A stretch of DNA of 58,789 bases from Siminovitchia terrae. GTDB taxonomy: Bacteria > Bacillota > Bacilli > Bacillales > Bacillaceae_C. Location: positions 1,144 through 59,932 of the forward strand of contig NZ_QYTW02000006.1 in assembly GCF_003605405.2 (NCBI RefSeq), given 5' to 3'. Shown here in pieces: positions 2,573 through 24,052 of this stretch (positions are counted from its first letter, which is position 1; each line of letters opens with the position of its first letter). The position numbers and the translations under genes are program-made. The notes beneath the pieces are model-generated. The model ran no database searches. It saw only the letters and a program-made list of their open reading frames with translations, and had not been told where the DNA came from.

Positions 2573-3771
2573 TATTCATCCATCCCCCGTATTTTCTCCT
2601 TGAGCGGATTCTTGATTGTCCCAGCATGCTCTAGGTCTACAGTAACGCGGATATTCACTGGCAATTCTCTAAAGATTTCATCCCAGTCTTCTTCTATCTT
2701 CTTCCAAGCATTAGGCTTTTTCCGATAAAACTCCTGTCCGAACCCCAAAATATCAATACCTACGTTTTGTTGAATACTTTTTGTATAGGTAGTAAAAAAG
2801 CGTTGTAAATATTTTTCAATCTGCCTTTCCATTTTTAAAAAATCATCACTGGTTGTAATGTCTTGACCACAGTCCAACTCGGAAATCTCACCTTTAAAAG
2901 CGACCTCTACATTCATCGTAGGTTTATTTTTTGAAAAATCCGGTGCCAGCTTCGCCTTCACATTACGCGATTCCATCACACCATGTCCCCCATTTGAACA
3001 TGGGAAGGTTGTTACAGAGTTTTTAACATTATTTGTAATCGTATTGAACGTTCGTGCTTCCTCATCCTCTAGCCAATCCTTCAACTGGTCATGATAAAAG
3101 ACCGCCAGTTTTCCGCTTGGCAGTGGCGGCTGTGGCGTTTTCATATTTGTTTCCGACTGTCCTCCGCTTGGCTTGCCAGGCAAAATACTTGGGACAACGG
3201 GATGGATGCCTTTAAGGGGGATTTTTGAAATCAATTCTCTTAATGTTGTAGCCTTTGAAGGATCCCAGATTTTACTTGAAAGCTCCAATTGCTCAAATAT
3301 TTCCAGTGTCGGGGCCACCAAAAAAGGAGTAATCATAGATAAAATTTCCTTTGCTGTATGGTCTTTGGCAATGACTACATAGAAGTCACTTCGCAATTCT
3401 GGATCCCTGTTAAAAAAATCCAATATATCGGTTAGTCCTTCTTTCGCAACTTCCTCACTAACAATAAGTGTATATAGATGCCCTCCGTACAATCTTCTTG
3501 GAGAGACTATAGAAATTTTCCTAATCGCATTTAGTACGCTCTTGTCCCTTCCTTCATATATAACAACCGGCGAACCTGTTCCAGCCGTTTTCTTACTAGC
3601 AACTTGCTCAGGGTTTATGACCTGTGCCGTAACACTGTACTCCCCATCTATTTTATCTATGCCAAAACCATATGTGAATGCCAGCTCATCCAATTCTCGG
3701 CTGCCCCAGCAGCCGGTAAGCATGAATAATGAAGCAATCATAACAAGCTGCACTATTTTTTTCGACCGCAT
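2572..3771 (-). CDS. Spore germinant receptor subunit C (GerAC family lipoprotein)
   Basis: A lipoprotein of about 399 residues of the Ger(x)C family. The N-terminus has basic residues, a hydrophobic stretch and the lipobox LTGC, followed by the typical WGSRELDELAFTYGFGID segment. In known receptors the C subunit is a diacylglycerol-anchored outer-face component. A GTG lies one codon upstream of the chosen ATG; the ATG at 3771 is preferred because AAGGAGG is spaced 7 bases from it but only 4 from the GTG. The RBS starts right after the stop of the A-subunit gene, giving tight coupling. Confidence 0.93.
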   Translation of the reverse strand: MRSKKIVQLVMIASLFMLTGCWGSRELDELAFTYGFGIDKIDGEYSVTAQVINPEQVASKKTAGTGSPVVIYEGRDKSVLNAIRKISIVSPRRLYGGHLYTLIVSEEVAKEGLTDILDFFNRDPELRSDFYVVIAKDHTAKEILSMITPFLVAPTLEIFEQLELSSKIWDPSKATTLRELISKIPLKGIHPVVPSILPGKPSGGQSETNMKTPQPPLPSGKLAVFYHDQLKDWLEDEEARTFNTITNNVKNSVTTFPCSNGGHGVMESRNVKAKLAPDFSKNKPTMNVEVAFKGEISELDCGQDITTSDDFLKMERQIEKYLQRFFTTYTKSIQQNVGIDILGFGQEFYRKKPNAWKKIEEDWDEIFRELPVNIRVTVDLEHAGTIKNPLKEKIRGMDE

Positions 3772-5488: not shown

Positions 5489-6028
5489 TTAATCATTTTT
5501 TTCCTGCAAGTCCGTAGTACCAAATGTATAATCAACGACTGTCGTATAATCAATGGCGTTGTTTTCCTTTGCCATATAATAATGCAAACGTGCATCAGCC
5601 ATCACAACAAGATTGCCGTCGTCATCATAGCCACCGATTGGACCATGGGATACAGCAAGCATTGTACAACCTTCTGGTGTAGTGAATGGCTCATGGACAT
5701 TCCCAGCAGCTTCACATGTATAGTAGTTTTTATATCCCTTATCATCCCCCTCTTCCTCATAATAGAAACCGCCTTCCAGGATAAAAGCTTCCGTATTATG
5801 AAGATGCCAGTGAACAGCGGCTTTGATTCCAGGATCAACTTTTAAAAGCAACGTAAAGTTGCCTGATACGAGATCACACATGAAAAGCTTAAAGTAAGTA
5901 CCCGGCATGAGCCAATCCGTCCAAGGAATCCAATCCGGATTGATAAAATCCCTGCGTTCTCCTTTAGGACTGTTACCTGGGCTTTTCATCCAAAAATCTG
6001 GTGTGAATCTTTTAATTTGGTTTGTCAT
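5489..6028 (-). CDS. ChrR-like cupin, 2,4'-dihydroxyacetophenone / diketone dioxygenase-like
   Basis: A 179-residue single-domain cupin. The metal site is visible as HWHLHNTE (His73, His75, His77, Glu80) and a second-motif histidine (His112 in NVHEPF). Size and motif order resemble the small ChrR-type cupin dioxygenases that cleave acetophenones or beta-diketones; a sugar- or drug-binding cupin is the alternative. It is cytosolic with no signal peptide. The start has AAAGGAGG 7 bases upstream. It is transcribed divergently from the MalT/BTAD-type regulator, whose target it may be. Substrate is unknown. Confidence 0.7.
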   Translation of the reverse strand: MTNQIKRFTPDFWMKSPGNSPKGERRDFINPDWIPWTDWLMPGTYFKLFMCDLVSGNFTLLLKVDPGIKAAVHWHLHNTEAFILEGGFYYEEEGDDKGYKNYYTCEAAGNVHEPFTTPEGCTMLAVSHGPIGGYDDDGNLVVMADARLHYYMAKENNAIDYTTVVDYTFGTTDLQEKND

Positions 6029-6157: not shown

Positions 6158-8857
6158 TTGGACCAAATTTCCGCTAAGCTTTACCCGGATGAACACTTGA
6201 TTCCAAGAAAACGATTGTTCTCGCTGCTTTTATCACGCCCTTCCAAGCAGATTGTTATGCTTACAGCTGGTGCCGGCTATGGAAAGACGTCCTTGCTTAA
6301 ATCTTTTTTTCATCAGTATCCTGACCTCTTATGCAATTGGATCACTCTTACGGAACCCGTGTCTACCCTTGATCAGCTGATGAATTTGCTGCCTTCCCAT
6401 CCAGATAAGAAACCTGCTTGGTTCGTCATTGATCAGACTGAACTAATTCAACTAGATTTAAATGAAACTATAAAGCTGGTCTCTTGGATTGAGAAACTTC
6501 CCCATACGATGACACTTGTATTATCCGGCAGGAAAAATCCAGAAGGCTTTCCTGCCAGCCGATGGAAAGTACAAGGCACCGGGATAATAATCAATAAAGA
6601 AATGCTTGCTTTTACTCGGATGGAGGCCGAGGAGATGTTAAAGGAATCTCTTCATACCAAAATACCAAATAATTTTACTCATTATATTTTTGCTTCATTT
6701 GATGGATGGCCCGCTGGCCTGGCATTATTCTGTAATGAAGCCCTTCACGTGGACTCCTACTATCATTTTAAATGTTACGTAGATTCGTTTTATAAAAATA
6801 AGGATCTCGTCCAGTATCTGTCTACTGAAATTGTCAGTAAACTCCCGGAACATCTTTTAGCTTTCATGTTAAACACTTCCCTCTTTTACAAACTGGATAA
6901 AGAGCTGTTACAAGAATATTTAAGAGACACACCCGTTTCCGACTATTTAAATGACGTTGCACATATACAAATGTTTTTTTCGGAGAATGATGGCCAATTG
7001 AGGATTCCTAGGCTTTTTAGAAAATTTTTTTATGACTTGGCGCAAAAAAAGCTGGGTGCAAAGAAAATTGGGGCCTTCCACCGTGAAATAGCACTTTTTT
7101 ATAGAAAGAAATTTAGATATATCGAAGCTTTATCTCATGCCTTGGCTGCTAACGAGGATCAACTGGTAATAGAGTTTATCGAGGATATGGCGGAACGCTA
7201 TGAGCCGAAAGAATTTCTTTTAATATTGGATGGATGGCTGGAACAATTTTCTCCAGCACTTCATTTATACAGGTTAAGCTTATTTTTATTCAGATGTTTG
7301 CCAGTAAGCTTGACCGCTTCGCTTTTAGAGCATTTGGAGGACATTGCCTTCTATTATAAAGATAAAGATTTATTTGCTTATACAGATGTATGCCATAGAT
7401 TGGCGACTATAAATTTTTACCAAGGGGATTTAAATAAAGCAATACATTATTATAAGACAAGTCTTGAAATAGCAGTTAGTACCGATAACGAGCCGATGCT
7501 TGCACTTAACACAACCCTGCTCGCCCAAATGTACCGCTTTATCAGAGAAAACGATACATCCTTAAGGCTGTCACGCCAGGCCCTTGCAATCGCTGAAACG
7601 CGAGGCTTCAAACAAGTTCAGATGCATGCGCTCTGGAATATGGCTGAACTTCTGCTTGATAAAGGCAATCTAGAAACGGCCAAAAGGCTGACTGAACAAT
7701 CATTGGAAGTATCAAGAGAATACGATGAGGCATCAATCATATATCCCATGTGTACGATGAGTCGATATTTCAGAAAACGCGGGGACGTAAAGAAGGCGCT
7801 CGATTGGGCTGGCCAGGCCCTTAAGAATGCCCGTCTTTTTAATATTGCCGGAGATATGGGGTGGGCTAAAGCCGAGATAGCCGTGTGCTTAAGAGCGGCG
7901 GGGCAATTAAAGGAAGCTCAACGGATGTTAGAAAAGTCCAAGCAATGTTTTAACGGATTTCAATATATGTCCTGTCTTGTCCAAAAGAGACTGATCACTA
8001 TTTTGTGCGACCAGCAAAAGTATGATGATGCACAACATCTCGACAATAAATTAAGAGATATTATCCGGAAGTCAGGATATACATGGATAAAAGGATATGA
8101 AATTTTAGAAATTAGAAGGTGTTCATCATTAAAGATTCAACTTTTAGGTCCCCTATCAATTTTTATCAATGGAGAAAAGACTCATATTAAACGAAAATCA
8201 AGTCTAAGATTATTACTGCTTCTTGCCTCCAGCGGCCAAAGAAGATGGTCCTCGGATGAACTGATTGGACTATTATTTCCTGATGAAACTGAAGAGGCTG
8301 CAGCAAACCAACTATACGTAGCCCTCTCGGTTTTAAGAAAATTTTTAGAACCTGATTTAGTTAAAGGCCGAAGTTCAACATTCATCCCCTACGATGGATC
8401 TCATTATTATTTCGGGTTTGATAAAGCGGATATAGATCTTGAAAGGCTTCAATACCTATTAAATAAACCATACAGCCCTCAAGTTTTTTCGGAAACCCTC
8501 TCTATTTATAAAGGGGATCTGCTAAAAGAATACTTATATGAAGAATGGCTTATAGATAAACGAGAAGATACTCGAAGCCAATATCTCTCAACACTTTTAA
8601 AGTGGCTTGCAGAGTGTGAAAGAAGTAATGACCCACGGGATGCCGCTAGAATTCTGGAAACTATGATTAAGCTGGATTCGTATGAAGAAAAATACTATCT
8701 GAGGTATATTAAATTATTAAAAGACATCGGCGAAGTGCGAAAAGCAAGAAGGGTAGCCGATAAAGCCATTGAAATTTTGAAAAATGAAGTGGGGATTGAT
8801 ATCAGCCATAAAGTTGATAAACTCCTAAACAATGTTTATGTAGTAAGGCCACAGTAA
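6158..8857 (+). CDS. MalT-like/BTAD transcriptional activator (NTPase + TPR + winged helix + BTAD)
   Basis: A large signal-sensing regulator of about 899 residues. The N-terminal NTPase module starts with the MalT-type LIPRKRL and a Walker A GAGYGKT (residues 38-44). A middle helical region holds TPR-like repeats (about 320-640). The C-terminus carries an OmpR/SARP-type winged helix (from LLGPLSIFINGEKTHIKRK, about residue 660) and a bacterial transcriptional activation (BTAD) domain (about 745-895). An ATG at 6116 gives 14 extra residues, but TTG at 6158 has the strong GAGGTGGGG just upstream and leaves the usual MalT-like N-terminus, so it is preferred. It sits between the divergent cupin and the downstream SDR, which are probable targets. 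The inducer is unknown. Confidence 0.85.
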   Translation: MDQISAKLYPDEHLIPRKRLFSLLLSRPSKQIVMLTAGAGYGKTSLLKSFFHQYPDLLCNWITLTEPVSTLDQLMNLLPSHPDKKPAWFVIDQTELIQLDLNETIKLVSWIEKLPHTMTLVLSGRKNPEGFPASRWKVQGTGIIINKEMLAFTRMEAEEMLKESLHTKIPNNFTHYIFASFDGWPAGLALFCNEALHVDSYYHFKCYVDSFYKNKDLVQYLSTEIVSKLPEHLLAFMLNTSLFYKLDKELLQEYLRDTPVSDYLNDVAHIQMFFSENDGQLRIPRLFRKFFYDLAQKKLGAKKIGAFHREIALFYRKKFRYIEALSHALAANEDQLVIEFIEDMAERYEPKEFLLILDGWLEQFSPALHLYRLSLFLFRCLPVSLTASLLEHLEDIAFYYKDKDLFAYTDVCHRLATINFYQGDLNKAIHYYKTSLEIAVSTDNEPMLALNTTLLAQMYRFIRENDTSLRLSRQALAIAETRGFKQVQMHALWNMAELLLDKGNLETAKRLTEQSLEVSREYDEASIIYPMCTMSRYFRKRGDVKKALDWAGQALKNARLFNIAGDMGWAKAEIAVCLRAAGQLKEAQRMLEKSKQCFNGFQYMSCLVQKRLITILCDQQKYDDAQHLDNKLRDIIRKSGYTWIKGYEILEIRRCSSLKIQLLGPLSIFINGEKTHIKRKSSLRLLLLLASSGQRRWSSDELIGLLFPDETEEAAANQLYVALSVLRKFLEPDLVKGRSSTFIPYDGSHYYFGFDKADIDLERLQYLLNKPYSPQVFSETLSIYKGDLLKEYLYEEWLIDKREDTRSQYLSTLLKWLAECERSNDPRDAARILETMIKLDSYEEKYYLRYIKLLKDIGEVRKARRVADKAIEILKNEVGIDISHKVDKLLNNVYVVRPQ

Positions 8858-13101: not shown

Positions 13102-13134
13102 AAAACCAAGCCCTCCTATGGGCTTGGCTCTCAA
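13102..13134 (-). terminator. Rho-independent terminator
   Basis: CCAAGCCC-(6)-GGGCTTGG is a perfect stem followed on the minus strand by TTTTTAAT. It would stop transcription coming from the M23 gene through the 13141-13558 gap. The rest of the gap 12979-13558 holds only this hairpin and element copy 2. Confidence 0.7.
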
Positions 13135-13214
13135 TAGTGTCTGCGTACTAACTGGAGTCTTTCATTTTTACATCTTTATAGGGAAATTGAAACAGCTCTT
13201 CAAAGTGCTCCATT

Positions 13215-13380
13215 ATCAAATGCGCCTTGGCGTATTTGCGCCCAGATTTTATCGAACTCCGCTCGATAAATTTCCTCTGAAAATCTGTGGCATCCGCCGG
13301 AAGCTTTAACTTTATTCAGCCGGGATTTGAATCCATTCATCTCACCACTTACAGAAGTGGGAGACTTCTGCTGAATGAAG
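13215..13380 (-). repeat. Dispersed structured element, copy 2 (166 bp, internally deleted)
   Basis: Same ends as the other copies (ATCAAATG...GAATGAAG|TTAA on the plus strand). It lacks about 22 bases around the usual CCCCCACTGAATGGAATACC stretch. The small hairpin usually GGGTTTGAACCC is here GGATTTGAATCC, a compensated double change. Confidence 0.9.
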
Positions 13381-16232: not shown

Positions 16233-16409
16233 TTTATCTTTGAGGTTAGTCCGCTATTAGTGACTGTTTTTTGCGGAAATCATATAAGATGGGTATTTAT
16301 TCCTGCTATTAGTAACCATTTTTAATGGAAGTCGAGGAGGATGGACATCTTTTCTCCACTAATTGTCCCGTTTTAACTGGGAACCACATAAGATGAGCAT
16401 CTATCTTCA

Positions 16410-16598
16410 ATCAAATGCGCCTTGGCGTATTTGCGCCCAGATTTTATCGAGCTCTGCTCGATAAATTTCCTCTGAAAATCTGTGGCATCCGCCGAGGCTT
16501 TAACTTTATTCAGCCGGGGTTTGAACCCCCACTGAATGGAATACCAATATGCTTTCATCTCACCACTTATTGAAGTGGGAGACTTCTGCTGAATGAAG
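16410..16598 (-). repeat. Dispersed structured element, copy 3 (189 bp)
   Basis: Full-length copy with ATCAAATG...GAATGAAG|TTAA on the plus strand. The loop of the TTTATCGAGC hairpin is TCT instead of TCC. Confidence 0.9.
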
Positions 16599-16658
16599 TT
16601 AATCATGCACATTTTTAATGGAAACAGCAAAGGACGGGCACTAAGCCCGTCCCAACAC

Positions 16659-17111
16659 TTATGCTTTTACCCAACTTCCTTCTACTGTCACGCCAGCATC
16701 TGCCAAAAGGTTTAAAACCGGGCATCTTCTTTCCACTTCGTTCTTTAATGCTTCTATTCTTTCTTCACTTTCTTCTGTGTGGATGACAACATTAAATTGT
16801 ACAGATTGGAAATGAGGAGAAACTCCTTCTACTCCTTGAAGACCACGCAAATCCAATGTTCCTTCGTTCTTAAATTCAACACCTGAATAAGAAAAGTTCA
16901 ATTCCTTAGAAATAAATGCAATCATAACGGAAGCGCAACTTGAAAGGCTAGCTAAAACCAGTTCAACCGGATTCGGCCCTTCATCTGTTCCCCCAAGTGT
17001 TTTCGGTTCATCAACGATGATTGGTTCAAAATCCCTAACCTTGATAGAAGTTTGTAATCCCTGTTGCCATTTTCCGCTTGTTTCTACCTTCATTAATTGA
17101 GCTGTTGCCAT
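16659..17111 (-). CDS. OsmC family peroxiredoxin-like protein
   Basis: A 150-residue OsmC/Ohr-fold protein. The two redox cysteines are Cys59 in LASLSSCAS and Cys130 in RRCPVLNLL, with the usual helix spacing. Such proteins reduce organic hydroperoxides, and some OsmC-like proteins handle sulfur species or thioesters. It is the last gene of the minus-strand operon, 43 bp after the CoA-transferase-like B subunit, so it may protect against a reactive product of that pathway. The RBS is GGATGGAGTGG. Confidence 0.88.
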   Translation of the reverse strand: MATAQLMKVETSGKWQQGLQTSIKVRDFEPIIVDEPKTLGGTDEGPNPVELVLASLSSCASVMIAFISKELNFSYSGVEFKNEGTLDLRGLQGVEGVSPHFQSVQFNVVIHTEESEERIEALKNEVERRCPVLNLLADAGVTVEGSWVKA

Positions 17112-17154
17112 CTTTAATCCACTCCATCCTTTTTATTGAGCCCCTGATAAATAT

Positions 17155-17886
17155 TTACTTAAATTCGCTGTAGCGAGTACCTTTTTGATCAACCAACTCC
17201 AACAATTGCAATTCTTCTTCTGTGATTGGAGAGAACTCTTCAAACTCCTCATGCTTTTCAACCACAAACCCTGTGTTTTCCGTAATCTCCTCAACTGAGC
17301 TGTTTGGAAACACAGAATAAAGGCGTAGACGTTGATCTTCTTCAGAACGTTTAAAAATCCCAAGCGGAGTTATGACATATTCTGTATTTCCCGCTGCCGT
17401 GATTACATCCAGCTTTTCTACAAAACTTCGCTTGTCATGGTTCGTTTTCCACAAAATTCCTCTTTTTACGGTAGGAAGCAACGCAGCACTTCCAGCACCG
17501 CCCGGCAACCGGACCTTCGGTTTATCAAAAGGACCAATCGCACTTAAATTCAAACGGCCGTAACCGTCAATTTGTGCTCCACTCAAAAAAGCAACATCAA
17601 GCGTACCACGTGCAGATAAATCGAAAATGTCGGATAGAGGGAAGTCTGAAACAGATCCTTCCCTTAAAACTGGATCTGCGCTGGAATAACTGGAAAAAGA
17701 ACTTGGTTCCGCATCAACGCCGCCTGGTATACTTAAATAGACCGCCTTTTTTGCATGAAGCTTTTTCGCCAATTGAACAGCTACAGCTGGCATAGGAGAA
17801 GCAACTCCATGAAAAACCCGTTCTCCATCCTGAACGAGGCGAGCCATTGAGACAGTGATATAATCAGCTGCTTGTAAGTTAGACAT
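17155..17886 (-). CDS. CoA-transferase family I, subunit B, second pair (IpdB-like, lacks catalytic Glu)
   Basis: A 243-residue family I CoA-transferase B subunit with the conserved LSGAQIDGYGRLN and RLPGGAGSA segments. Where the first pair has the catalytic glutamate in VYEGGG, this protein reads YLSIPGGV, so the transfer glutamate is missing. The same loss is known in IpdB, where the enzyme became a hydrolase that opens a ring of a steroid CoA-ester. It overlaps the upstream A subunit by 8 bases, so they form one heteromer. It probably acts on a CoA thioester by hydrolysis or C-C cleavage rather than CoA transfer; substrate unknown. Confidence 0.82.
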   Translation of the reverse strand: MSNLQAADYITVSMARLVQDGERVFHGVASPMPAVAVQLAKKLHAKKAVYLSIPGGVDAEPSSFSSYSSADPVLREGSVSDFPLSDIFDLSARGTLDVAFLSGAQIDGYGRLNLSAIGPFDKPKVRLPGGAGSAALLPTVKRGILWKTNHDKRSFVEKLDVITAAGNTEYVITPLGIFKRSEEDQRLRLYSVFPNSSVEEITENTGFVVEKHEEFEEFSPITEEELQLLELVDQKGTRYSEFK

Positions 17887-18664
17887 GAATCTCAGCCTCC
17901 TTTAATTTTTCCAAATAGCTGTTCGGATCCTTCAAGTAGTCAATTACTGCTTCTTTATCAATGGAATAGGATGGTGCACAACTACCCGGTGCAGCCCCTT
18001 GTTCAGCCAGCACAACACTTTCTACAAGGAATCCCGGCACTTGTGGCCTGACAGTCCAGCTGTCCGAAGAAATGATTTTTTCAGCAGTAACGATCACCTT
18101 TTCCGCTGCTCTTACCATAATCAAATCTTCAAATACTGCCCCCTCAATGTAGGCATTTCCCTGTTCATCAGCAATGTTGACATGGATCACACTGTAATCC
18201 GGCCGAAGTGCAGGAACAACGGCAGTCTTTTTCCCTGTAAAAGGGCAATCAACATATTTAATCTGTCCGGTCAATTCAGGCAGTTCACTCCCCTGAAACC
18301 CGTTAATAGGCTGGAAAGGTACGCCGTAAATACTGGCACGCAATCCGGCAATAACACTCGCACATGCATGTTCATGAGCGACAATTTCTTGGTTCTGAAC
18401 GCCTTTCCTATAGCTTTGAGCCAGACCAAACATTTCAAAACCAATATAACCACCATAAACAGACTTAAGGGATTTTTCTGTTGCCAGTAGGTCAACATCC
18501 AATGCACCAGCTGTTTTAATAACAGATAAATTTTTCTTTCCTTGACGAATCAGTTCTGTTACAAAAGCTACAGGTGAACGATGAAGCGCATTTCCGCCAA
18601 GTGCGAGCAACGCTCCGTCTGAAACGACGGAAGCTGCTTCTGACAAACTTATTTGTTTTGACAT
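17879..18664 (-). CDS. CoA-transferase family I, subunit A, second pair (IpdA-like)
   Basis: A 261-residue A subunit with GGNALHRSPVAF near the N-terminus and VIHVNIADEQGNAYIEG, the typical family segment. The region HEHACASVIAGLRASIYGVPF holds a glutamate in the area where IpdA carries its catalytic Glu. It lies 17 bp after the first B subunit and overlaps the second B subunit, so it is translated with it. Paired with a B subunit lacking the usual glutamate, it is more likely part of a hydrolase than of a true CoA-transferase. Confidence 0.82.
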   Translation of the reverse strand: MSKQISLSEAASVVSDGALLALGGNALHRSPVAFVTELIRQGKKNLSVIKTAGALDVDLLATEKSLKSVYGGYIGFEMFGLAQSYRKGVQNQEIVAHEHACASVIAGLRASIYGVPFQPINGFQGSELPELTGQIKYVDCPFTGKKTAVVPALRPDYSVIHVNIADEQGNAYIEGAVFEDLIMVRAAEKVIVTAEKIISSDSWTVRPQVPGFLVESVVLAEQGAAPGSCAPSYSIDKEAVIDYLKDPNSYLEKLKEAEIHV

Positions 18665-18681
18665 GAGCTATTCCTCCTTCT

Positions 18682-19440
18682 TTATGCGATAACAACACCA
18701 TCTGGATCAAGTGAATGCAAGGTTTTCAATTCTTCCTCCGTGGGTTCCTCAATATATGACCAATCTTCGGCAATCCCAATAGGGAAGCTGCTATTCGCTT
18801 GAACATCTTCCAATGTGTAGCCTTTAAACAGGTGTAATAATGTCAATTTCCGTGTTTCATCGTCAAAGCCATACACTCCGATTTGGGTAATGACACGATA
18901 TGGCCCTGTATTTGCAGGTAGTCCCGCTTCCGCCCGGCCATTAGGCCCATCCAAATAACCAGGGCTTGTTAAAAAGTCGAGCTTCTCAACAAATTTCCTC
19001 TTGTCCTGCCCCATGATGATAATTGTCCGTTCGCATAAGGAAGCGATGTCCGCTCCTCCGCCTGAACCCGGGAGCCTTACCTTCGGTTTCTCCCAGTCGC
19101 CAATAACAGTCGTATTTAAGTTCCCGTATTGATCAATCTGGGCTCCTCCTAGAAACCCGTATTGAATCCATCCTGCCTGTGCCAGGCTCATAACATAATC
19201 CATTGAGCCGACCGTCACACCATTCTCATACGTTAATGATTCACTTACCTGAATCGGAAGCCTGCCTGTCGGCCTACCTCCAACACCACCGCCCTCATAA
19301 ACGAGCAATAAACCCGGTGCATGTGTGTTCAATGCGAGAACAGAAGCCAAGAGCGGCATTCCCGTACCAACATAAACTGCTGCATCCTTAGGCAAAAGTC
19401 GGGATGCTGCGATAATCATTTTCTCTGTATCGTTTGCCAT
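18682..19440 (-). CDS. CoA-transferase family I, subunit B, first pair (GctB-like)
   Basis: A 252-residue B subunit. It keeps the catalytic glutamate, Glu49, in VYEGGGVGG, which forms the glutamyl-CoA intermediate in glutaconate-type transferases. GFLGGAQIDQYGNLN and RLPGSGGGADIAS are the expected family segments. It starts 2 bp after its A subunit. A true CoA-transferase activating a carboxylic acid with CoA from a donor thioester is likely; the acid is unknown. Confidence 0.87.
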   Translation of the reverse strand: MANDTEKMIIAASRLLPKDAAVYVGTGMPLLASVLALNTHAPGLLLVYEGGGVGGRPTGRLPIQVSESLTYENGVTVGSMDYVMSLAQAGWIQYGFLGGAQIDQYGNLNTTVIGDWEKPKVRLPGSGGGADIASLCERTIIIMGQDKRKFVEKLDFLTSPGYLDGPNGRAEAGLPANTGPYRVITQIGVYGFDDETRKLTLLHLFKGYTLEDVQANSSFPIGIAEDWSYIEEPTEEELKTLHSLDPDGVVIA

Positions 19441-19442
19441 GC

Positions 19443-20468
19443 TTATCCTCTCCTTTTTGCTACTTTCGGATATGGGGCCAATTTTTTTTCAATTCTTTCC
19501 AATTGTCTTAATACGCGAACCCCGCCGATTTTTTCTAAGTATTCATATTGATCCTTACTCTCGTGCACATACTCCTCCAAATATTCCTCTACCCCCTCTT
19601 CGCTTATAGAAGCGTCGAGCCAGATTTGCCAATGATCCTCATCAAAGGAATAAAGGCTTGGCACTTGGTTTGGATGAGAACCATACGGCACCTCCACAAC
19701 TGCATCAACCACAAAATAAGGAATTTTTGTCAAATCAGGACGATTTGAAAATACTTCATCATGAACAATTTCTTCAGCAGTTATCAATACAAACTTAGCT
19801 GCATGGGCCAGTTCTATATCTTCTGCGATGTTTCCGTCAATTTGGCAGTTCCCGTATTTATCTACGCGATGGACATGAATGATGGCCACGTCCGGATAGC
19901 AGGCAGGAAGCAGTTCGACCGGTTCGTTTGTAAAAGGATCAATAATTGTTTTTGATCCGCTGTAATGCAGCGTATCCGTTCCTAGCGAAGACCTGGTCGG
20001 GTAAAAAGATAGCCCCTTCATGGCCGCTGTAAAACGCCATTGGAATCCTGCATTGGTTGTTTCCGACAGTACTTTTAGACGTCCAGATTCAACCGCTCTT
20101 CTAGTCGGAAGAGATAGTCCCCGAACTTCATCGGCAAACCCATACGAGACTTCCGCTTTCGTGATATTGCCTGCGGCAGCAAGCAACTGCCAATCATGTT
20201 GTGAACCTTTTGTTCCAATAGTTAGATTTCCAATTTTTTGACGGATGATTTCATGAACTGCTGCAATTGGGTTACGCACAGATCCCATTCCGCCAAAAAC
20301 TATATAATCTCCTTCTTTTACACCGCGAGAAACCGCCTCTTGTAATGTAGTTCTCTTATCTTTTTTTGCAAAAGTTTTGTTATTCTTCCGATATTCTCTG
20401 ATTTTATCAGGGTGCTCCCATCCGTAAAGCTTGGATGAGACTCCTTCTTTTACAATCGTTTGAGCCAT
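19443..20468 (-). CDS. CoA-transferase family I, subunit A, first pair (GctA-like)
   Basis: A 341-residue A subunit with a family core from about residue 50 (GDYIVFGGMGSVRNP) through VAIIHVHRVDKYGNCQIDG. It has extra N- and C-terminal helices compared with the 261-residue second A subunit, as in glutaconate CoA-transferase A. It begins 26 bp after the permease gene of the importer and is followed by its B subunit at 2 bp. The import genes upstream suggest that the acid it activates is brought in by that transporter. Confidence 0.87.
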   Translation of the reverse strand: MAQTIVKEGVSSKLYGWEHPDKIREYRKNNKTFAKKDKRTTLQEAVSRGVKEGDYIVFGGMGSVRNPIAAVHEIIRQKIGNLTIGTKGSQHDWQLLAAAGNITKAEVSYGFADEVRGLSLPTRRAVESGRLKVLSETTNAGFQWRFTAAMKGLSFYPTRSSLGTDTLHYSGSKTIIDPFTNEPVELLPACYPDVAIIHVHRVDKYGNCQIDGNIAEDIELAHAAKFVLITAEEIVHDEVFSNRPDLTKIPYFVVDAVVEVPYGSHPNQVPSLYSFDEDHWQIWLDASISEEGVEEYLEEYVHESKDQYEYLEKIGGVRVLRQLERIEKKLAPYPKVAKRRG

Positions 20469-20494
20469 TTACTTTCCTCCTCAATAAGTAAGTC

Positions 20495-21148
20495 CTATCT
20501 TTTATCCACAGCTCTTGCCGCGCGATCACCGATAAATTGAATTAACTGTACAAGCACAACCAGGATAATAACTGTTGCAATCATAACGTCATTTTGGAAT
20601 CGATAGTATCCGAAGCGGATCGCCAAGTCTCCAATTCCTCCGCCTCCAACAATCCCAGCCATCGCTGAGTAGCTTAAAAGACTAATGACCGTTACCGTCA
20701 ATCCTGCAATCATCCCGGACCTTGCTTCTGGCAACAGAACCTCTTTAATGATCAGCCAAGGGGAAGCACCGCATGATTCAGCCGCTTCAATTACGCCCTT
20801 GTCAATCTCCCGCAAAGACGTCTCAACGAGCCTAGCGTAAAAAGGAATAGCTGCTACAGTTAGTGATACACTCGCTGCTGCCGGTCCCATTGTTGTTCCC
20901 AAAATTAATTTCGTGAATGGGATCAGAACAACAAGCAAAATAATGAAAGGAATGGAACGGATAATATTGATAATGGTTCCTGCCACATTTTGCATGAAGC
21001 GGTTTTGCCAAAACATCCCTTCACTGGTTACAAAGAGGGCTATACCTAAAGGAACGCCGATGATAATGGCAAAGGCGACCGCAATGCCCATCATCCAAGA
21101 AGTTTCCACAAAAGCTTTTCCAAACTCATTGACCATCTCAGGCAACAT
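20495..21148 (-). CDS. metI: MetI-type ABC transporter permease
   Basis: A 217-residue permease with five membrane helices and the EAA motif EAAESCGASPWLII, characteristic of the methionine (MUT) uptake family. The frame opens 25 codons earlier, but GGAGGT is 8 bases before the ATG at 21148; this start overlaps the last codons of metN. It forms an importer with MetN and MetQ. Because CoA-transferase genes follow in the same operon, the natural substrate may be an organic acid or sulfur compound rather than methionine. Confidence 0.9.
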   Translation of the reverse strand: MLPEMVNEFGKAFVETSWMMGIAVAFAIIIGVPLGIALFVTSEGMFWQNRFMQNVAGTIINIIRSIPFIILLVVLIPFTKLILGTTMGPAAASVSLTVAAIPFYARLVETSLREIDKGVIEAAESCGASPWLIIKEVLLPEARSGMIAGLTVTVISLLSYSAMAGIVGGGGIGDLAIRFGYYRFQNDVMIATVIILVVLVQLIQFIGDRAARAVDKR

Positions 21149-22139
21149 CAGCGAGCACCTCCAATCGACTTGTTTGCTTCGTGATATAATCAATCGCCTT
21201 TTGGACATCTCGACGTGAGCCAATCAATTCAATAATGAGTGTTCCTAACGCACGATCCTGAATATAGGAAATCTGTCCGTGAAGAATATTGGCATTCACA
21301 TTGAATTGTTTCAGTGTTTCGGAAATTACTGCCTCTTCAGCCGAATCTCCCTGGAAAACGACTTGTACAATCGGGCCTTTTCTTCCCTCAAGAAGTCTTT
21401 CAGGCAGCTCCAAAGAGTGAACCGTTTGGACGAATTGTTTGGATAGATCGGTCTTTGGGTTAGCAAAAATATCATATATGTCGCCAAGTTCAACCACTTT
21501 CCCATCTTCCATGACAGCCACCCGATGGCAAATATCCTGCACGACTTCCATTTCATGAGTAATCAGGACGATTGTAATGCCTAATGTCTCATTGATTTTC
21601 TTCAACAACTGTAAAATCGATTTTGTTGTCGTTGGATCCAGAGCCGAAGTCGCTTCATCACAAAGGAGAACCTTCGGGTCATTGGCCAAGGCTCTTGCGA
21701 TACCGACCCGTTGTTTCTGTCCCCCAGAGAGCTGAGCTGGGTAATGCCCACTCCGGTCTGACAGCCCAACCATTTCTAACAACTTAGGAACCTTCTTTTT
21801 AATTTCTTCTTTCGTTTTCCCTGCGGCTTTCAAAGAGAAGGCCACGTTATCAAAAACCGTTTTGGAGCTGATCAAATGAAAGTGTTGGAAAATCATACCG
21901 ATCTTCTGGCGCTCTTTCCTGACTTCATTGTCTGAAAGTGCCGTCAGATCTTTTCCATCAATCAAGACCTTGCCCTCCGTCGGCCTTTCTAATAAGTTTA
22001 AGCACCTTAGCAGAGTACTTTTACCAGCGCCACTGTAGCCAATGATGCCAAAGACTTCTCCCTGCCGGATGGTCAAACTTACTTCATCCACAGCTGCTAC
22101 ATTTTTGTAGCGCTTGGTGACCTGTTGAATATCGATCAT
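21138..22139 (-). CDS. metN: MetN-type ABC transporter ATP-binding protein
   Basis: A 333-residue ATPase. Walker A is GYSGAGKS (34-41), signature LSGGQKQR, Walker B LLCDEATSALD and the H-loop THEM. The C-terminal ~90 residues form the NIL regulatory domain that in MetN binds methionine to shut down transport. The ATG overlaps the stop of metQ as ATGA. The NIL domain supports a sulfur-amino-acid-type ligand. Confidence 0.92.
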   Translation of the reverse strand: MIDIQQVTKRYKNVAAVDEVSLTIRQGEVFGIIGYSGAGKSTLLRCLNLLERPTEGKVLIDGKDLTALSDNEVRKERQKIGMIFQHFHLISSKTVFDNVAFSLKAAGKTKEEIKKKVPKLLEMVGLSDRSGHYPAQLSGGQKQRVGIARALANDPKVLLCDEATSALDPTTTKSILQLLKKINETLGITIVLITHEMEVVQDICHRVAVMEDGKVVELGDIYDIFANPKTDLSKQFVQTVHSLELPERLLEGRKGPIVQVVFQGDSAEEAVISETLKQFNVNANILHGQISYIQDRALGTLIIELIGSRRDVQKAIDYITKQTSRLEVLADVA

Positions 22140-22969
22140 TTATTGCCCTCCTTTTCTACTTGATACGGAGGTTTCACATATCCTTTTGCATTTTTATTTG
22201 TGTACTCTAAAAATTCATCAGACTTATAAGCTTTTTCCAGAGCTTTCGCAAAAGGTTTATCCTCATCCTCTTTTCTTACAGTCACATAGATCAAATAACC
22301 TTCTGGCGTCTTCTCAATTTCTACCGCTTCATCCAATTTCAATCCGGAAGCCAGTGCATAGTTCCCGTTAATGAAAGCAAAATCTGTATCTCCCAAGGAA
22401 CGAGGTGTTTGTGCAGGGTCAATCGGCTTTATTTTTAAATTGAGCTTGTTTTTCACAATATCCTTTTCTGAAACAATAGTAGGATCCGCATCTTCGTCTA
22501 CTTCAATCAACCCAAAGGACACAAGCATGTTCAGAGATCTTGCGAGATTGGTCGGGTCATTCGGCATTGTGATAGTTGATCCCTCTTTTATATCATCCAA
22601 AGACTTATGTTTTTCGGAATAAAGTGCGATTGGAGCGGTTGGAACTGCATATGACGCTACCAAATCCATATTATGGTCTTTATTGAATTGCTTTAGGTAG
22701 ATGCTGTTTTGGTACAGGTTGGCGTCGATTTCCCCTTCATTCAGGGATATATTTGGCTGGATATAATCATTGAATTCAACAATTCTCACTTCATACCCAT
22801 CCTTTTCAAGTATTGGGATGATTCCGTCTTTTAATTGGTCACTATATGGTCCTGCAGTAGCACCGATTACGATTTCTTTCTTTTCCTCGCTAGTAGCTGA
22901 ATCGCTGCCGCAAGCTCCTAAAACGAATAAGCTAAAAAGTAAAGTGATATAAAGCAAAGTTTTTTTCAT
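22136..22969 (-). CDS. metQ: MetQ/NlpA-family substrate-binding lipoprotein
   Basis: 277 residues, with signal MKKTLLYITLLFSLFVLG and lipobox LGAC. The mature part starts KKEIVIGATAGPYSDQLK, typical of the NlpA/MetQ family. AGAGGAG is 8 bases from the ATG at 22969; longer starts lack an RBS. First gene of the importer, 392 bp after yezD with no terminator visible between, so the SAM riboswitch further upstream can control it. The 22970-23361 gap contains no clear promoter, riboswitch or gene. Confidence 0.92.
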   Translation of the reverse strand: MKKTLLYITLLFSLFVLGACGSDSATSEEKKEIVIGATAGPYSDQLKDGIIPILEKDGYEVRIVEFNDYIQPNISLNEGEIDANLYQNSIYLKQFNKDHNMDLVASYAVPTAPIALYSEKHKSLDDIKEGSTITMPNDPTNLARSLNMLVSFGLIEVDEDADPTIVSEKDIVKNKLNLKIKPIDPAQTPRSLGDTDFAFINGNYALASGLKLDEAVEIEKTPEGYLIYVTVRKEDEDKPFAKALEKAYKSDEFLEYTNKNAKGYVKPPYQVEKEGNK

Positions 22970-23361
22970 TTTCATTCTCCTCTGGTTCACTATGTGTCTT
23001 TTCAATACCTCAGATGATAGACTCTTTTTCTTTAAAACCGTGATATGATTTTTCTTCATTCCCCGAGTGATGTCATATCTATTGATTTGCTAGCTCTCTG
23101 CTTTCCGGATTGCCCGAAATGCATCAAGATAACAGCAGGAACAATCATTGTTAATTTTTCATATATGAATACTCAGAAATAAAGCGATTTGAGCCATGCA
23201 ACCAAATTTGCTGCCCGCAAATATGGCAAATTCTACTTTTATCTGTTCCCACTCTCCTTTAATTTTTTTACCTTGTTCACAAATACGCATGTAAACAATC
23301 CAGTGAAATCAAAAAGCCTCCGGTTGTCCAGTCAGCCTACTGATTTATTGTTCGATATGCA

Positions 23362-23511
23362 TCATGCCGGAAACCGCTTCTTTTCAATTCGGTTGATCTG
23401 GACGATTTTCCCTTCATGAACTGTAATCTGCAATTCACCAAAACGTAAATTGTTAAGTAATTCCTCAATCACTTTTAGCTTCTCATTGTCCACTTTTTCC
23501 TTGAGGCTCAT
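23362..23511 (-). CDS. yezD: YezD family protein (DUF2292)
   Basis: A 49-residue protein, MSLKEKVDNEKLKVIEELL followed by GELQITVHEGKIVQINRIEKKRF, the complete DUF2292 domain. DUF2292 genes commonly lie next to sulfur assimilation genes; the molecular role is unknown. The ATG at 23511 has AAAGGAG 9 bases upstream; the longer frame upstream runs into an intergenic repeat and is spurious. It is the first gene after the SAM-I riboswitch, which supports a role in sulfur or methionine metabolism. Confidence 0.85.
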   Translation of the reverse strand: MSLKEKVDNEKLKVIEELLNNLRFGELQITVHEGKIVQINRIEKKRFPA

Positions 23512-23547
23512 TCCCCTCATCTCCTTTAAATGTTTTCCGATATAGAA

Positions 23548-23758
23548 CAAAAGCGCAAGCGCCTGTTCAACGACGTACAGACTGAGCTGAAATGTGAAGA
23601 CGGCGTTTAAGGGCGACAAGCGCTGGCCGCCGAATGTCGCCACGTCCTGTCGCCTCGCTTGCACTAGTACTTCCTGTACGTCGGAGCCGATGTTGACTTA
23701 TCGTAGGAGGAAGCGCGAAGTCTGCTAGTCGATAGGCGCTGGAGTTGGACGCAGTACA
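23548..23758. repeat. Bacillus-type GC-rich intergenic repeat
   Basis: About 210 bp starting AAAAGCGCAAGCGCC and ending GGCGCTGGAGTTGGACGCAG, clearly GC-richer than its surroundings. Short inverted ends (GCGCC/GGCGC) and internal palindromes are visible. It resembles MITE-like repeats seen between genes in many Bacillus genomes. It lies inside the leader between the SAM riboswitch terminator and yezD. Confidence 0.65.
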
Positions 23759-23817
23759 ATCTGATAAACAAGTTATACACAAGCATAGATTTTATAATTT
23801 CCTATATCACAAGAAAA

Positions 23818-23842
23818 AGACCCCTTAATAATAAGAGGTCTC
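23818..23842 (-). terminator. S-box intrinsic terminator (expression platform)
   Basis: On the minus strand AGACCTCTT-(ATTATT)-AAGGGGTCT is followed by TTTTCTT. Its 5' half ACCTCTTAT is complementary to the 3' side of the aptamer P1 stem (ATAAGAGG), the classical mutually exclusive antiterminator of S-box leaders. Confidence 0.9.
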
Positions 23843-23871
23843 CGCTTTTTAATAGTAGAAATCAAGCTTTG

Positions 23872-23991
23872 CCTCTTATCTATCAGATTTGTAAAAAAAT
23901 CTGCTGGAATTGGCACCGTTTGAATAAAAAATATATCCAATGGTTGCCGAGGCTTCACAGGGCCAGTCCCTCCACCTCTCTGCATAAGAGC
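23872..23991 (-). ncRNA. SAM-I (S-box) riboswitch aptamer
   Basis: On the minus strand: P1 5' strand CTCTTAT, then GAGGTGGAGGGACTGGCCC, GTGAAGCC, GGCAACC, a variable P3 arm, GGTGCCAATTCCAGCAG, and P1 3' strand ATAAGAGG. These are the conserved S-box blocks in the right order. High SAM would stabilise P1 and permit the terminator at 23818-23842, switching off yezD and, by read-through, the importer and CoA-transferase genes. Confidence 0.95.
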
Positions 23992-24023
23992 TATAAAAAT
24001 ATGAATTTTTGAATGTAAAACCT

Positions 24024-24052
24024 ATTTTATTCGGTATGGAATGAATTGTCAA
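24024..24052 (-). promoter_or_regulatory. Sigma-A promoter of the S-box operon
   Basis: On the minus strand TTGACA is followed after 17 bases by TAAAAT, about 33 bases before P1 of the riboswitch. Confidence 0.85.

Follow-up and report, generated by a model that had tools for sequence, protein, structure and literature searches.

The window analysed here, a stretch of 58,789 nucleotides from Siminovitchia terrae (contig NZ_QYTW02000006.1, positions 1,144 to 59,932), carries on its minus strand nine genes, yezD, metQ, metN, metI, gctA, gctB, a second gctAB-like pair and osmC, behind a leader with an S-adenosylmethionine (SAM) riboswitch of the SAM-I class (S-box). The conserved core of this system is the riboswitch together with gctAB, which encodes a putative coenzyme A (CoA) transferase. 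In the reading we favour, and hold to be rather likelier right than wrong, the operon would serve a SAM-repressed scavenging of sulfur, in which a desamino thioether carboxylate is taken up and activated with CoA. We favour it as the reading that accommodates S-box, importer swaps, gene neighbours and MetQ ligand pocket together.

Conservation of the S-box and gctAB in Bacilli

Considering GctA relatives of at least 68% identity, we obtained 19 distinct loci (hereafter the core loci), which span two or more orders of Bacilli. Among the named genomes, 15 loci reach at least 68% GctA identity and the other 65 at most 36%, counting the best 80 of 175 relatives. In the order sample, 5 of the 396 other genomes carry the lineage (E<=1e-60), and in the class sample 3 of the 397 others do (E<=1e-80); these samples and that of the phylum are parts of larger groups. 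GctB matches occurred in 61 other genomes of the 397 in the phylum sample, with no more than 50% identity among the matches listed, and 19 loci taken from them served as controls.

All 17 core loci with upstream DNA have an S-box upstream on the same strand, detected by Rfam in all 17 or in copies of them. With 88.8 to 99.4 bits, where the gathering score is 44.4, a chance occurrence of these S-boxes is ruled out. Failure of the riboswitch to accompany the CoA-transferase genes had been named beforehand as a possible refutation of the sequence-only reading, and the co-conservation holds at every testable locus. L059 and L069 (with L052 and L053 from the same genome) stand outside this count, given that their contigs begin inside the operon, and no S-box was found in either. 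At loci with more distant CoA-transferases no S-box was detected at E<0.05 (0 of 90; the top match, in L101, has 22 bits and E 0.073). This control started from 92 loci, of which L150 and L151 proved to be core loci (G533 and G563) with S-boxes and were excluded; 65 come mostly from Desulfobacterota and other phyla, in which S-boxes are possibly rare, and 26 carry only about 1.5 kb per side. In L209 (G1148), a longer stretch of one control, an S-box (2810-2927, minus strand) lies downstream of a GctB homologue of 50% identity, on the same strand. Within the genome of S. terrae itself, none of the other three CoA-transferase-type matches lies near any of its nine S-boxes.

The five other genomes searched within the genus all retain the gene order S-box-metQNI-gctAB-second pair-osmC, and four of them have yezD as well. 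The osmC match of Siminovitchia thermophila (L047/L058) spans two overlapping frames (L058, 12451-12898), so that the gene may be broken or the sequence in error there. Across the core loci we observed five gene arrangements. Arrangement A, found in the window, L055-L058, L068, L060 and L061 and in truncated form in L059 and L069/L053, reads S-box-(yezD)-metQNI-gctAB-second pair, with osmC added in Siminovitchia. Arrangement B (L062, L063) has S-box-metQNI-gctAB followed by a bioY-like gene, and B2 (L215) S-box-metQ-gctAB without metNI. Arrangement C (L064-L067) reads S-box-crotonase-gctAB, and a second S-box, in divergent orientation, precedes an SsuABC-like importer. Arrangement D reads S-box-gctAB. 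In L210 it comprises in addition a crotonase gene and genes for an SsuABC-like importer, an SsuD-like protein and a second SsuBCA-like set, and in L211 genes for an acyl-CoA-dehydrogenase-like protein, an SsuD-like protein and SsuBCA-like proteins. L211 further has a yezD-like gene, placed between gctB and the gene of the acyl-CoA-dehydrogenase-like protein; a weaker yezD-like gene is found further upstream in L210.

Some loci show additional features. Sporosarcina sp. HYO08 has tandem S-boxes (L060, 5454-6474) in the order S-box-msrA-S-box-metQNI-gctAB-second pair. The divergent S-boxes of L064-L067 (Schinkia azotoformans, Calidifontibacillus and two metagenome-assembled genomes) lie 180-191 base pairs (bp) apart, before crotonase-gctAB and the SsuABC-like importer, respectively. 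L210 carries three S-boxes within 6.4 kb (386-490, 5716-5823 and 6599-6699), the first before what by eye is a sulfate-type importer set and the third before gctAB. The bioY-like gene after gctAB in L062 (10889-12524, with a bioB-like gene) and L063 (6551-7195), likewise named by eye, possibly forms one unit with it.

At all 17 testable loci the gctAB cluster also holds importer genes, which are of two unrelated types (metQ alone in L215). Using a gctA tree of 18 of the 19 core loci (all but G256/L069, which is spread over two contigs) and five distant ones, we found that the importer type switched at least twice while the S-box and gctAB stayed, which suggests that both types carry the same kind of acid. 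The clustering of importer genes with gctAB points to a substrate from outside the cell. It therefore tells against the idea that the cell salvages an acid of its own making (3-methylthiopropionate and the keto acid of methionine salvage are examples) and that the importer serves some other compound such as a methionine derivative. The logic of an S-box would fit such a salvage, and the nickel form of acireductone dioxygenase yields 3-methylthiopropionate in methionine salvage (PMC6302742); all in all we regard this alternative as unlikely.

The ligand pocket of the gctAB-linked MetQ proteins

Neisseria MetQ holds methionine by its amino and carboxyl groups through R156, N213 and N238, with Y81, F98, H100 and Y103 packed round the thioether, and the change N238A weakens binding more than 10^5-fold (PMC6739813). 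Using pairwise alignment to this protein and MAFFT, we mapped the pocket residues in an alignment comprising 30 loci, the own-genome proteins and the gctAB-linked family matches. Position 238 is Ile in 12 of 12 gctAB-linked MetQs, which come from at least two orders, and Asn in all 32 other distinct MetQ-family proteins sampled, a count that leaves out L183, L197 and L206 as duplicates of own-genome MetQs. Position 100 is Asn in the 12 linked proteins and His (22), Thr (9) or Asn (1) in the others. R156, N213, Y81 and Y103 are retained in every linked MetQ, and no charged residue has been gained in the seven pocket columns examined; the contacts to L-methionine are thus altered in all 12 at two positions (N238I and H100N). 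No more than two changes are needed to explain the linked proteins on the tree. The loss of N238, with the other contacts mostly kept, suggests as the simplest ligand a carboxylate with a thioether-like side chain and no alpha-amino group, and we infer that the linked MetQs bind a methionine-like acid of this kind.

These data bear on whether the operon is simply an ordinary methionine importer under an S-box, to which CoA-transferase genes for an unrelated carbon acid were joined downstream by chance. MetQNI importers controlled by S-boxes are well known, and the likeness to MetNIQ is clear: the ATPase encoded by metN (22139-21138, minus strand) has the NIL domain (PF09383 over cut-off), metI (21148-20495, minus) encodes a MetI-type permease (PF00528 over cut-off) and metQ (22972-22136, minus) a lipoprotein of the Lipoprotein_9 family (PF03180 over cut-off). 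The gctAB-linked MetQs differ from that system in having Ile for N238 and Asn for H100, and the three proteins miss the NCBIfam cut-offs (MetN 413.2 of 499.7 bits, MetI 204.8 of 212 and MetQ 158 of 374). In addition, gctAB stands under an S-box without metQ in six loci (L064-L067, L210 and L211), and the genome has another metQ behind an S-box. With the methionine contact N238 replaced in all linked MetQs, the view of the Met-type importer of the sequence-only reading as a methionine importer in the strict sense is not supported, and we consider the chance joining of two unrelated functions improbable. The AlphaFold model of MetQ has a mean predicted local distance difference test (pLDDT) score of 69.

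GctAB and its sulfur-gene neighbours

The gctA (20468-19443, minus) and gctB (19440-18682, minus) products both contain the CoA_trans domain, and their best solved match is the two subunits of glutaconate CoA-transferase from Acidaminococcus fermentans (1poi_A, E 2.9e-39, and 1poi_B, E 4.9e-40). In that enzyme the anhydride is formed by Glu54 of the beta subunit (PMC5380842), and GctB of all 19 core loci has this residue, within VYEGG in the window. From family and residue we infer that GctAB is a type I CoA-transferase of the glutaconate type, which would act on the imported acid. What sets GctAB apart from glutaconate CoA-transferase is its setting, with an S-box in front, an importer alongside and, at two loci, SsuD-like genes as neighbours.

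Those two loci are L210 and L211, where gctAB adjoins SsuD-like and SsuABC-like genes of the alkanesulfonate type. The L210 SsuD-like protein scores 379 of 510 bits, below its NCBIfam cut-off, and of the two SsuA-like proteins of that locus the second is over its cut-off (300 vs 163.5 bits) and the first under. Such neighbours, together with the SsuA-family-like binding proteins of L048 and L210 (under cut-off), would suit a substrate that is a sulfonated or sulfinated carboxylate, activated with CoA and then relieved of sulfite by a second enzyme; the acyl-CoA-dehydrogenase-like protein of L211 also weakly matches 3-sulfinopropanoyl-CoA desulfinase (88.9 bits, cut-off 600). A pocket that keeps the thioether-packing Y81 and Y103 and has gained no charge argues against such a ligand, and we give this alternative a small chance. 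The claim of a sulfur-containing acid made by the sequence-only reading is favoured by the MetQ pocket and, in two genomes, by the SsuD-like and SsuABC-like neighbours of gctAB; which acid this would be and how it would be broken down stay at the level of proposal.

A metabolism of a dicarboxylate or of a biotin-related acid, tied to the SAM level by happenstance, could call upon the glutaconate precedent of the CoA-transferase family and upon the bioY-like genes after gctAB in L062 and L063, with the bioB-like gene of L062 (by eye). Inspection by eye showed no such gene next to gctAB in the window, L048, L051, L060, L061, L210, L211 or L215, and the co-location of gctAB with SsuD-like genes also tells against it; we consider this alternative very unlikely.

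The Glu-less second pair and the proposed breakdown step

The next two genes, ipdA-like (18664-17879, minus) and ipdB-like (17886-17155, minus), encode the alpha and beta subunits of a second pair with the glutaconate-CoA-transferase fold. The column of the catalytic Glu is occupied by Ile in 10 of 10 of its beta subunits, and because of this loss the pair is probably no CoA-transferase. A role as a second CoA-transferase was thus rejected, at variance with the sequence-only reading, which had taken both pairs for such enzymes and had called this one IpdAB-like. For both subunits 5mzw outranks 1poi and 6con/6co6 (alpha, 5mzw_A, E 2.3e-33, against 6con_A, 2.9e-21; beta, 5n03_D, E 9.5e-30, against 6con_B, 1.5e-12). 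We take 5mzw to be AibAB of Myxococcus, a decarboxylase, the structure search itself naming only the glutaconate CoA-transferase family, and 6co6 and 6con to be IpdAB of steroid ring catabolism. In the AibAB decarboxylase, a Cys in place of the beta-subunit Glu has a role. The second pair resembles AibAB as its closest solved match and in lacking the catalytic Glu, and differs in having Ile opposite the Cys of the 5mzw beta chain. IpdAB belongs to the same fold family and likewise lacks the catalytic Glu, with no transferase activity towards short acyl-CoAs (PMC5380842), and both subunits of the second pair match it clearly more weakly than they match 5mzw.

Alpha subunits of the second pair with at least 71% identity are encoded by 10 of the 19 core genomes, without exception inside the operon. 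Eight others have matches of 32-35% only, and in G049 a relative of 43% identity is encoded elsewhere. As to the second beta subunit, relatives of 48-49% identity also have Ile at the Glu column, and no S-box was found at the microcompartment-type operons that hold them. In L207 (8811-11759) and L208 (6854-9751), relatives of the pair lie by eye directly behind a CoA-disulfide-reductase-like gene in operons of this type. The AlphaFold model of the second beta subunit has a mean pLDDT of 49.

The crotonases of L048 (arrangement C) and L210 (arrangement D) share their best NCBIfam family, and those of the other loci have 2vx2 and NCBIfam PRK08139 as best matches. In a test of six Siminovitchia genomes and five of other lineages (the genomes of L059-L063 were left out), this crotonase type was matched in all five of the latter, in G513 and G563 only away from gctAB, and had no match at E<=1e-45 in any of the six Siminovitchia genomes. 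A crotonase acting from elsewhere in Siminovitchia is thereby not supported, and the distribution of crotonase and second pair is compatible with one replacing the other.

A comparable chemistry is found in the demethylation of dimethylsulfoniopropionate (DMSP), where the DmdB-DmdC-DmdD pathway activates a methylthio acid with CoA and a crotonase frees methanethiol (PMC5395565, PMC6302742). This logic would be shared by the route proposed here, and the operon of the window has a transferase instead of a ligase. The nine operon proteins, the set to which this search was confined, include no ligase or dehydrogenase and none of DmdB, DmdC and DmdD.

Leader and operon organization

A complete S-box leader is in place on the minus strand, in agreement with the sequence-only reading. 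It begins with a sigma-70-like promoter (TTGACA-17-TAAAAT, 24052-24024; 11 of 12 consensus positions), which is followed by the aptamer (RF00162, 23990-23873; 93.2 bits, gathering score 44.4, E 4.4e-21; 112 bits with the covariance model R1, whose training set includes the window). In an alignment of 27 sequences, two-sided changes occur at 16 of 26 predicted pairs. The antiterminator 5' strand AUAAGAGG (23879-23872) consists of the P1 3' strand plus one base and is the exact complement of the antiterminator 3' strand (23838-23831), which is contained in the 5' arm of the intrinsic terminator (23843-23816). Because this arm holds the complement of the P1 3' strand, antiterminator and terminator are mutually exclusive, and from such an anatomy the riboswitch would bind SAM and repress the operon. 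Between terminator and yezD lies a dispersed repeat (23525-23775) with 93 matching genome pieces, itself included; in L055 the distance from S-box to yezD is just 98 bp, against the repeat-carrying leader of the window strain.

The nine genes were confirmed at their proposed positions. The first, yezD (23511-23362, minus), encodes an OscA-like protein of 49 amino acids (DUF2292; PF10055, 54.5 bits, cut-off 22) that scores 40.3 bits with the NCBIfam OscA equivalog, below the cut-off of 85, and the last, osmC (17111-16659, minus), an OsmC-family protein according to its profile matches. From metQ to osmC the gaps are -4, -11, 26, 2, 17, -8 and 43 bp, as had been claimed (-11 to 43 bp), and the yezD-metQ gap is 389 bp, or 302 bp if metQ starts at the upstream ATG 23059. 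No intergenic terminator-like match occurs on the minus strand between yezD and osmC. Past the leader terminator, the matches on this strand are a weak one of five pairs in the repeat before yezD (23564-23551), three within genes and a strong one past osmC (16653-16631; nine pairs, seven G-C), such matches being near the chance level on both strands together (10 found, 7.2 expected). Among the relatives, L057 has one terminator-like match before yezD, as in the window, according to a finder that is insensitive and missed the L060 terminator evident in a separate inspection.

The S-box lies directly before metQ, with gctAB after it, in L060, L062, L063 and L215, which supports the single S-box unit proposed by the sequence-only reading; in L060 the riboswitch with its terminator stands immediately before metQ, and in the other three the distance is 158-186 bp. 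Elsewhere in the window, two intergenic stretches (13118-13340 and 16373-16630) are alike, with similar predicted peptides from their open reading frames, and perhaps represent another repeat element.

A putative route for sulfur scavenging

The S-box regulon of Bacillales comprises methionine and sulfur genes controlled by the SAM riboswitch (PMC3766115). Nine S-boxes were found in the genome of S. terrae. They precede two O-acetylhomoserine sulfhydrylase loci (over cut-off), one of them with two S-boxes, and, among others, a methionine-biosynthesis enzyme dependent on pyridoxal phosphate, metK (by eye) and another metQ. O-acetylhomoserine sulfhydrylases could take up methanethiol or sulfide. 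Two further S-box clusters unite MetQ proteins with monooxygenases dependent on flavin mononucleotide (L141, 10580-14292, C12; L142, 8721-16170, C24). Monooxygenases of this kind are used on organosulfur compounds, so that MetQs of this genome already adjoin organosulfur-type monooxygenases. The L141 cluster also carries an acyl-CoA-dehydrogenase-like protein.

With these elements the following route may be proposed. At low SAM the antiterminator of the S-box would form and the operon be transcribed; the MetQNI-type importer would take up a methionine-like carboxylate without alpha-amino group, and GctAB, judged by its family and catalytic residue, would move CoA onto it. A second enzyme acting on the CoA thioester would then break the acid down, a task that may fall to the Glu-less pair here and to a crotonase or acyl-CoA-dehydrogenase-like protein elsewhere; no candidate gene for this step was seen next to gctAB in L062, L063 or L215. 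The freed thiol, most simply methanethiol, could enter methionine synthesis through the S-box-controlled O-acetylhomoserine sulfhydrylases, whose genes are present. One candidate substrate is 3-methylthiopropionate, named because its CoA route to methanethiol is established in DMSP degraders and because it arises in methionine salvage; 2-hydroxy-4-methylthiobutanoate is another, and neither is singled out.

Several observations weigh against the scavenging of a desamino thioether acid. The nine operon genes include no evident carbon-sulfur lyase, and glutaconate CoA-transferases act on dicarboxylates, so that a sulfur-free diacid is possible. In L062 and L063 gctAB is followed by a bioY-like gene. 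The SsuD-like and importer SsuA-like matches beside gctAB are below their NCBIfam cut-offs. As for the pocket, position 98 of the linked MetQs is Phe in six and Tyr in the other six, and position 100 is no clean marker, its Asn being present also in the unlinked MetQ of the C12 cluster (55% identical, with Asn kept at 238) and Thr standing there in 9 of the 32 others. Moreover, the linked MetQs are related, and their uniform pattern may therefore go back to a single event. Regarding the transcription unit, the yezD-metQ gap contains two weak promoter-like sites (9 of 12 positions, at chance level) in the window and two weak terminator-like matches in L068.

Described bacterial organosulfur routes under sulfur limitation mostly rely on flavin monooxygenases, and the breakdown of 3-methylthiopropionate is known mainly from marine DMSP pathways. 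Among the papers listed by the literature search, which left most subscription papers outside its coverage, none was found to describe an S-box with CoA-transferases, and titles and the beginnings of abstracts showed no methylthiopropionate CoA-transferase. The word "CoA-transferase" does not occur in the main text of the S-box regulon article (PMC3766115). A more specific proposal, which we advance tentatively and hold to be doubtful, is that Bacilli possess an undescribed CoA-dependent route in which MetQ, once an amino-acid receptor, now receives desamino thioether acids, a type I CoA-transferase dedicated to such acids activates them and a Glu-less enzyme of the transferase fold acts, in place of a crotonase, as thiol-releasing lyase.

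If the scavenging reading is true, a CoA-based route controlled by a SAM riboswitch would give Bacilli another way to acquire reduced organic sulfur, and the Glu-less branch of the CoA-transferase fold would gain a function. The residue change in MetQ would offer a direct handle, in one protein, on the binding of methylthio acids.

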